Below are positions 31,737 through 33,905 of a DNA stretch of 64,000 nt, in pieces. The DNA is from Fimbriimonadaceae bacterium (GTDB lineage Bacteria; Armatimonadota; Fimbriimonadia; Fimbriimonadales; Fimbriimonadaceae). The stretch lies in the NCBI GenBank assembly GCA_019454105.1, contig CP075364.1:2173362-2237361 (forward strand), written 5' to 3'. Within the stretch, counting starts at the first letter, position 1. Each line of letters starts with the position of its first letter. The notes under the pieces were generated by a model that was given only the letters and a program-made list of their open reading frames with translations, made no database searches and had not been told where the DNA came from. Made by a program: the position numbers and the translations under genes.

Positions 31737-33674
31737 TTAGAACTTGACGCTGAGCTGGGTGCCGAAGAGGCCACCGCGGAACAGGCGGCCGAAGCCCGGG
31801 TTCGGGTTGTTGCCCGAGCCAGCAGCGAAGTCCACATCGCTGAACTGATAGGTCAGCATGAGGTTCGTGTTGGCGCCCATACCGTAGTTGAATCCAACGG
31901 TGTACCAGCGCATCTTGTCGTCCTGGACTCCAGGATTGCCGTCGAAGCGAGTGTCCTCGTAAGAGGCCATCATTCCCCAGTTGTCGCCGAACTGGTACTC
32001 AGCGCCAACCATGAAGGAATTGATCTTGTCGTAGGCCACGTAGCGGTAGCCTGCGGTGTTCTCCTTCGGCTCCATGAACTGGCCCTTGCCCCAGATCTTG
32101 AAGTTCTCAGCCGGCTTGAAGTGAAGCATGGCTCCGAACCCCTTGATGTTCGTCGGGTTCCACTGGTTGCCCAGGCGGCCCCACGAACCGGCCGCGAGGA
32201 AGAAGTTCTCGATCTCTCGGTAGCCGACCTTGGCGCCCCAGTTGGTGGCGTCGTAGCCGATGGAGACGTCGAAGGCAGTGTTGTCGTCGTCGAGAGCGTT
32301 GCTCGTGTTCTCAGACAGCGAGGACTGAGAGTACGCGCCGTTGACCGAGAAGTTGTCGAACTTCAGCTTGACTTCGCCACCGAACACGTTCAGCCTGTTG
32401 GCAGGCTGGGCTCCAACGCGAAGCGGATTGGCGTCCGCGATGCGCGTGTCGCTGTCGTGCCAGAGGTAAGCCAGGTTGACCGAGCCCATCTCGCCGATCG
32501 GGAAGACCAGTTGGGCGCCGAGCGTCCGATCGATCAGTCCGGTTCCGAACGGGATCGGGTTGATCTCAACACCGTTCACGGTCTGGATGCCGGAATTCAC
32601 GCCGCCGAACACATGCAGGTTCGCCGGGCCGAAGTTGAACATGAGCATGGCGCCGTCCATGTAGTAGTCGCCATTGTCCCAACGCTCGTTCTTGTAGTAG
32701 GTCGTCGAATCGGTCCGCTTCCAGAGGTACGAGCCCACCTGGTGTCCCATGCGACCGACCTTGGCCTTGAAGCCTTGACCGACCATGGCCGAGTCGAAAG
32801 TGACGTGGGCCGTATTGATGTAGAAGTCGCTCGATCCGGTGCCGAAGGCGTTTCCACCGTTGGCGCCGAACTTGCTGCCGAAGGTCGAGCTGCTCATTTG
32901 GCCGAGCGGGGAGCTGGGGCCGTTCGAAGCGAGCATGTTGCCCGAGACGATGGTGGCCTCCCACTGCGGGCCTTCCTCGTTGGTGCCGCTGAGCTTGAAG
33001 GCGGCCTCGTGGAGGACCTCGAGGTCGCGCGACATGCCGACGCGGTTTCCAGCATAGCTGCCGGCGCCCACACCAAGGATGCGGTTGCCCGGCGTGATGC
33101 CGAACCGGTTGTCGGTGGCATGGCTGCTCAGGACGAGGAAATCGACCGTGCCGTGGATGTCCACAGCCGGCTTGATCTTCTCGAGCTTGGCGACGCGAGA
33201 CTCAAGGCTGTCAAGGTCCTCACGGAGCTTCTTGACGTCGACGCCCATGCTGGCGAGTTCCTTTTCGAACTCCTTGGCGAGCTTTTCGAGATCCTCGATG
33301 CGCTTGCCCCAACCCTTCATGCCGTCGAGCTGAGCCTTCATCTCGCGGAGCTGGTCTCGGAGCGGGGCCATGTCGCCGCCGCCCTTGATCATGTCTTCGA
33401 GCTCCTTGATCTGGTTCTCAAGGTCGCCGTGCATGCTCATCATCTTCTTGTAACAAGCAGCGACAGCGGCAGCGAACTCATAGCGGCTCATCGGGCGGTT
33501 GCCACGATAGAGGCCGTCTGGATAGCCGACGAGACAACCGGCGTCCTTCAGCTGCTTGACAGCCTCGTAAGCCCAGTGGTTGTCGGGAACGTCTGGGAAG
33601 TTGTCCTGAGCGAACAGCGGCAAAGCGCTGAACGTGAGGACGGCACCCAGAGCGAACTTGAGTGTTCGGTTCAT
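31737..33674 (-). CDS. SLH-domain outer-membrane porin (OmpM/OprB-like)
   Basis: 645 residues. A signal peptide (LKFALGAVLTFSALPLFA) leads to one SLH domain (about residues 24-80: FPDVPDNHWAYEAVKQL, GYPDGLYRGNRPMSRYEFA), then a long coiled coil (about 85-155: MKGWGKRIEDLEKLAKEFEK). The rest is an aromatic- and glycine-rich transmembrane beta-barrel with alternating strands, ending in LSVKF with a terminal phenylalanine that BAM would recognise. SLH domains bind pyruvylated secondary cell-wall polymer on peptidoglycan, so the protein should tether the outer membrane and act as a porin. Strong AGGAG and an mRNA hairpin control translation; a perfect terminator follows. It is a probable major surface protein. 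Confidence 0.88.
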   Translation of the reverse strand: MNRTLKFALGAVLTFSALPLFAQDNFPDVPDNHWAYEAVKQLKDAGCLVGYPDGLYRGNRPMSRYEFAAAVAACYKKMMSMHGDLENQIKELEDMIKGGGDMAPLRDQLREMKAQLDGMKGWGKRIEDLEKLAKEFEKELASMGVDVKKLREDLDSLESRVAKLEKIKPAVDIHGTVDFLVLSSHATDNRFGITPGNRILGVGAGSYAGNRVGMSRDLEVLHEAAFKLSGTNEEGPQWEATIVSGNMLASNGPSSPLGQMSSSTFGSKFGANGGNAFGTGSSDFYINTAHVTFDSAMVGQGFKAKVGRMGHQVGSYLWKRTDSTTYYKNERWDNGDYYMDGAMLMFNFGPANLHVFGGVNSGIQTVNGVEINPIPFGTGLIDRTLGAQLVFPIGEMGSVNLAYLWHDSDTRIADANPLRVGAQPANRLNVFGGEVKLKFDNFSVNGAYSQSSLSENTSNALDDDNTAFDVSIGYDATNWGAKVGYREIENFFLAAGSWGRLGNQWNPTNIKGFGAMLHFKPAENFKIWGKGQFMEPKENTAGYRYVAYDKINSFMVGAEYQFGDNWGMMASYEDTRFDGNPGVQDDKMRWYTVGFNYGMGANTNLMLTYQFSDVDFAAGSGNNPNPGFGRLFRGGLFGTQLSVKF

Positions 33675-33679
33675 TTAGT

Positions 33680-33705
33680 GTTCTCCTAAGTTTAGCAAGG
33701 AGAAC
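33680..33705 (-). promoter_or_regulatory. Hairpin that sequesters the SLH porin ribosome binding site
   Basis: In the porin mRNA, GTTCTCC (33705-33699) pairs perfectly with GGAGAAC (33686-33680) across a 12-nt A/U-rich loop. The 3' arm is the Shine-Dalgarno itself (AGGAG), placed about 9 nt from the ATG. The 7-bp stem would hide the site until melted or bound. Confidence 0.55.
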
Positions 33706-33905
33706 GCGTCTCGGCAACCGCCAAGGCTCTATCCACTGAGTCCCACAACTTTCCTTAAGTTCCCTGTGAGGCCAAGCTTCTGAGCTTGACGACGCTTCCT
33801 GCGTCTTCTCGCTGGCGGGCCAGACTCAGTCTGACCCAAGTGGATTATGGCCAGAAGCCAAGCGCTCTTGCAAGGAAGGGTGGGTCCTTCCCCTGCTTTT
33901 CCTCG
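33706..33905. other. Hairpin-rich intergenic leader between phosphohexomutase and porin genes
   Basis: The 200 nt hold several short, near-perfect hairpins in series: AACTT/AAGTT (33747-33761), CAAGCT/AGCTTG (33773-33788), GACGC/GCGTC (33791-33805), GGGCCAGA/TCTGACCC (33817-33837) and GGAAGG/CCTTCC (33874-33891). No clear -10/-35 pair or coding frame stands out. Part is probably the porin 5' leader, and the last hairpin may end the phosphohexomutase transcript, though it lacks a U-tract. Confidence 0.4.

Follow-up and report, generated by a model that had tools for sequence, protein, structure and literature searches.

A conserved folded leader with GGA-loop hairpins precedes an SLH porin gene in the Fimbriimonadaceae and is a candidate target of CsrA

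Results

Organization of the porin locus

The window, the whole stretch of 64,000 nucleotides that was analysed, carries on its minus strand a gene for an SLH-domain outer-membrane porin, preceded by a predicted promoter and a series of hairpins (H0 to H4). The features are listed below with the evidence for each.

31737 to 33674, minus strand: SLH-domain outer-membrane porin, 645 aa (Pfam SLH; SlpA structure match)
33680 to 33705, minus strand: H4, hairpin masking the Shine-Dalgarno (SD), arms GTTCTCCT/AGGAGAAC (arm coordinates, fold, shuffles)
33683 to 33687, minus strand: SD, AGGAG (within the 3' arm of H4)
33742 to 33770, minus strand: H3, CTCAC(AGGG)AACTT[AAGGA]AAGTTGTGGG, with a purine bulge and a GGA loop (sequence-only matches, covariation)
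33771 to 33790, minus strand: H2, spacer hairpin GTCAAGC..GCTTGGC between H1 and H3 (folds, coordinates)
33791 to 33805, minus strand: H1, GACGC[AGGAA]GCGTC, CsrA-like GGA hairpin with its loop at 33796-33800 (window scan, covariation)
33817 to 33837, minus strand: H0, strong hairpin at the predicted mRNA 5' end (fold; equivalents in relatives)
33844 to 33849, minus strand: -10-like hexamer CATAAT (promoter scan; ATAAT-type recurs in relatives)
33868 to 33873, minus strand: -35-like hexamer TTGCAA (promoter scan; TTGCA-type recurs in relatives)

The porin open reading frame matches the Deinococcus SlpA structure 7zgx over residues 4-173 (E 8.8e-11). Its own genome yields a single match, and the porin is present in 60 of the 61 genomes searched, its own included. 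For comparison, 90 leaders were retained, of which 81 belong to 29 genera of the porin's own family and the other 9 to sister families; loci matched inside the gene (e.g. L042, L048-L050) and fragments were left out before counting. The predicted promoter is sigma70-like and recurs in relatives, with a -10 of at least 5/6 matches upstream of the porin in 58 of the 81 same-family leaders. Transcription would start at ~33837-33840, and the predicted leader is ~163 nt long. Equivalents of H0 with other sequences have a mean stem score of 7.2 versus 4.3 in shuffled sequences (45 leaders).

From 5' to 3', the leader consists of H0, the contiguous H1-H2-H3 module (33742-33805), an unconserved linker and H4. 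The three hairpins of the module adjoin without an unpaired gap, ~36 nt upstream of H4. A stretch of 176 nt that begins at the predicted 5' end and extends into the coding sequence has a predicted folding energy of -67.2 kcal/mol (z -3.15), a value reached by 0 of 200 shuffles. In an RNAalifold analysis of 14 whole leaders, only H3 and two pairs close to H1 were retained, since the remainder of the leader does not align. An Rfam search of the window brought only two tRNAs to threshold, and the best near-match on the minus strand, RsmY (9.4 bits, E 4.6), is at chance level. The porin leader, having no Rfam match, is a candidate for a new RNA family.

The SD-masking hairpin

Read on the minus strand from 33705 to 33680, H4 is GTTCTCCT-TGCTAAACTT-AGGAGAAC, a perfect stem of 8 bp with a loop of 10 nt. 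A first-pass annotation had claimed a perfect stem with the SD in its 3' arm, and such a stem is indeed present at 33680-33705; the reported size of 7 bp with a 12-nt loop must be corrected, because a T-A pair closes that loop. AGGAG lies 8 nt from the ATG of the porin (33672-33674). The predicted fold of H4 by itself is -9.8 kcal/mol, and the mean pairing of AGGAG in a 78-nt context is 0.99. When the 45 nt preceding the SD were dinucleotide-shuffled 200 times, a perfect SD stem as long as H4 arose once (p=0.005). The stability of the 101-nt context around H4 as a whole is not unusual (z -0.67).

The annotation had also singled out the porin as the masked gene. An SD-like site precedes 29 of the 53 window genes called from open reading frames, the starts of which are uncertain, and among these 29 the porin alone has a perfect 8-bp stem covering the site. 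The next-longest stem, 7 bp covering AAGG, belongs to one other gene. The H4 repeat is unlikely to be a DNA operator, because it sits ~130-155 nt within the predicted transcript.

The exact H4 stem was not found in the 80 same-family leaders examined, yet masking stems of other sequences recur among them. Perfect SD stems of at least 6 bp occur in 17 of the 80 (4.4 expected) and of at least 7 bp in 6 (1.3 expected); when each genus is represented by one leader, 8 of 29 have a stem of at least 6 bp, compared with 2.05 expected. Eleven of the 29 genera show stems of at least 6 bp that differ in sequence, the SD-pairing arms including GTTCTCCT, TGTCTCC, GTCTCC, TTGCTCC, TCCTGTC and CCTCCT. In a set of 69 leaders, which includes sister families and is defined by an SD within range of the first script, the SD pairs with upstream sequence at a mean of 0.65, versus 0.46 in shuffled sequences, with p<=0.05 in 33% of leaders. 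When upstream arms were swapped between genera, the native arms paired better with the SD than the foreign ones did in 21 of the 29 genera (Wilcoxon p=1.8e-4). Leader-level means in this test are close (0.64 vs 0.60), and the strength of the SD stem is not kept across relatives. The largest genus, g19, has no masking tendency, its own pairing usually being below the swapped value. Compensation between the arms, proposed earlier as a check, was thus seen as the recurrence of different stems and in the swap test, but neither for the exact stem nor in g19. Taken together, the recurrent stems and the exception of g19 indicate that masking is recurrent, not universal.

In sister family f5 the SD of three leaders (L014, L019, L025) lies in the loop of a small hairpin, ACUC[AAGGAG]GAGU or alike, and the arrangement is similar in L021, L030 and L044. 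This is a different presentation of the SD, and again a CsrA-like one.

The conserved GGA-loop hairpins

H3 was matched by sequence alone in 65 of the 81 same-family leaders, and its pairs were counted on these rows rather than on rows selected by the hairpin finder. Changes on both sides are found at 6 of its 10 pairs, and the covariation score was reached by 0 of 500 shuffles. Pairing across the rows is 91%, falling to 35-51% when the partner is slid. The loop GGA is kept in 63 of the 65 rows, the two exceptions reading GGC; GGC loops occur in genus g11 (L023, L081) and in L024. The purine bulge and an inner AAC/GUU stem are also kept, with the bulge GGA frequently AGA in g19. The other 16 leaders gave no sequence-only match to H3, and visual inspection reveals variant hairpins in several of these.

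H3 is found nowhere else in its own genome, where the next R1 match (E 0.48) is noise, and a search of the genome contigs for related loci found none. In the phylum, 62 of 291 genomes have an H3 match at E<=0.003, and 61 of the 62 belong to the porin's family. The lone match outside the family (G145) is antisense to a coding open reading frame and was taken as chance. Strong additional matches in G073 and G075 stand before SLH porins cut by contig ends. In G076, H3 precedes a broken, truncated SLH porin remnant (L139, G076:C45:71400-73400), suggesting that leader and gene were duplicated together. Visual inspection and the hairpin finder show hairpins of similar topology but different sequence in sister families f5, f2 and f3; some f5 loops read GGG or GGC, although f5 has CsrA.

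H1 is less widespread. It was found by pattern in 35 of the 90 leaders and is rare in g19. Covariation is seen at 4 of the 5 stem pairs in 24 rows from relatives; because these rows were chosen for an AGGA loop, only the stem can be weighed as evidence in its own right. The loop, C[AGGAN]G, is identical to the repeat of CsrB, CAGGA(U/A/C)G, and among 61 occurrences of CAGGANG in the window H1 alone forms a hairpin with a stem of at least 5 bp. Hairpins with GGA in the loop number 176 in the 90 leaders, ~3 times the shuffled mean of ~63 (maximum 77). The 53 window genes have a mean of 0.62 such hairpins each, and the porin is the only one with two whose stems are at least 5 bp long. Predicted folds and covariation place the GGAs of H1 and H3 in exposed loops, ~42 nt apart, and the GGA of the SD in a stem, ~65 nt from the H3 loop.

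CsrA, FliW and the target rule

The genome encodes a CsrA of 68 aa (G000:C1:1696365-1696520, E 2.2e-25), with a score over the cut-off of the CsrA equivalog and matches to the CsrA structures 5dmb and 2jpp. Leu4 and Arg44, residues that matter for binding according to PMC7652899, are kept in its sequence. The gene adjoins fliW and is ~0.5 Mb from the porin. CsrA was found in 78 of the 81 genomes of the family and in all 47 genera of the order; such near universality leaves presence and absence without contrast, so co-occurrence proves little. Two large g19 genomes (G075, G073) have a second, diverged csrA. The two genes are closer in genus g30, where csrA and the porin are separated by 3.5-5.4 kb in 5 of 5 genomes with both on one contig (G102-G106, of 8 genomes). 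The intervening genes were read in G102, where flgL-fliW-csrA is followed by an AP-endonuclease-like gene and a phosphomannomutase as in the window (L144, G102:C1:2521000-2529500).

A rule for CsrA targets (PMC4066749) combines an A(N)GGA that overlaps the SD with three or more sites and with two or more pairs of sites spaced 10-60 nt. With primary sites at -125, -89, -80 and -12 and 5 pairs, the porin is classed as a target by this rule (CSRA_TARGET), as are 62 of the 81 same-family leaders, compared with 33% of shuffles in which the region of the SD was left intact. Three of the 53 window genes are so classed, the porin among them.

One of the three flagellin leaders of the same genome (L147, G000:C1, start near 2557453, minus strand) contains GGCC[AGGAA]GGCC ~50 nt before a GGAGG SD, a layout like that of hag; the other two lack an [AGGAA] hairpin.

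Discussion

H4 is the variable 3' end of a long, conserved, folded leader. The parts of that leader resemble several known systems. One is the Campylobacter jejuni flaA leader, which (PMC4894983) also belongs to a surface-protein mRNA in a FliW-CsrA bacterium and has two stem-loops with ANGGA loops that are supported by compensatory changes. The flaA leader differs in being 45 nt long with the second loop over the ribosome binding site, whereas the porin leader is ~163 nt long, serves an SLH porin and holds its SD in a stem. The review PMC7652899 offers three further comparisons. The Escherichia coli glgC and Bacillus subtilis hag leaders likewise combine an upstream CsrA site, a GGA hairpin in glgC, with a site at the SD; CsrA is described as bridging 10-63 nt (PMC7652899), a range that includes the H1-H3 spacing and is just exceeded by the distance from the H3 loop to the SD. 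The Pseudomonas aeruginosa psl and E. coli ymdA leaders are CsrA-family targets with SD-sequestering hairpins, but the RsmA site of psl is in the loop of the SD hairpin and the site of ymdA is in the hairpin (PMC7652899), whereas the H4 loop has no GGA. CsrB-type sRNAs share the CAGGA(U/A/C)G hairpin loops (PMC7652899), whereas the porin hairpins belong to an mRNA leader that has just two GGA loops.

We consider it somewhat probable that the porin leader is under the control of CsrA, with or without FliW, and that the SD stem serves as a translational gate. The first-pass annotation had proposed a gate tuning a major outer-membrane protein, which the anatomy of the leader supports. Among the switches it offered, one gated by protein fits best, in a more specific form that it did not mention, that of a conserved, CsrA-like array of GGA hairpins upstream. 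Judged from sequence, the leader would work like a CsrA target and is a candidate member of that class. CsrA dimers may dock on H1 and H3, one dimer possibly bridging the two, and would thereby determine how much the porin mRNA is translated or how stable it is. FliW, whose gene is next to csrA, may adjust the amount of free CsrA, as in the control of flagellin, and H4 would hold translation low in dependence on the occupancy of the leader. CsrA could act by blocking the SD, as in glgC and flaA, by stabilising the SD hairpin, as in psl, or by opening it, as in ymdA. Repression appears mildly preferable to an opening or protecting role like that in ymdA and flhDC. Several observations speak against CsrA: the GGA of the SD is in a stem, H1 is patchy, some loops read GGC or GGG, and two of the three flagellin leaders lack the hairpin.

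The 16S tail can pair with AAGGA, and porin mRNAs are usually abundant. Both facts, and the recurrence of a 5'-terminal hairpin, would suit a leader that acts mainly as a stability and loading device, in which H0 protects the 5' end, AAGGA loops serve as ribosome standby sites and H4 gives a low basal rate; standby pairing, however, needs no pentaloops in covarying stems, and we regard this explanation as unlikely. Also unlikely, and slightly more so, is that H1-H3 binds another protein or a small ligand as an undescribed cis-regulatory RNA, its GGA loops being unrelated to CsrA. The purine bulge and inner AAC/GUU stem of H3 do exceed the needs of CsrA, and H3 is specific to the porin within genomes and reaches no Rfam family at threshold, but the conserved loop core is merely GG(A), H1 equals the CsrB repeat and csrA is present throughout. 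That the 8-bp SD stem arose by chance in one genome would agree with its absence in exact form from relatives and with g19, but is rather improbable given its rarity among shuffles of its own sequence and the excess of SD stems of at least 6 bp in the family, including the count of one leader per genus. An RNA thermometer, as the annotation had suggested for the sequestered SD, is rejected as highly improbable, since the stem is perfect, its strength is not kept in relatives, and predicted melting does not release the SD in the physiological range (pairing 0.997 at 10 C, 0.976 at 70 C and >0.97 throughout).

CsrA is known mostly for its control of flagellin, glycogen and biofilm genes, and to our knowledge its role beyond well-studied groups has been little explored. 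Among open-access titles and abstract openings, none was found to report that CsrA controls an SLH porin or an S-layer protein. If CsrA controls this leader, a whole bacterial family would set its main envelope porin through CsrA, using a leader family absent from Rfam. The SD stem that is visible in the window would be the variable end of a conserved device, and the porin leader provides one precise, testable CsrA target. A more tentative extension, which we think doubtful but worth stating, is that the porin mRNA is both target and sponge: present in abundance and offering two or more GGA loops per molecule, it would titrate CsrA. Porin output would then be tied to the flagellar FliW-CsrA checkpoint, in a circuit of envelope-motility homeostasis conserved across the whole family.
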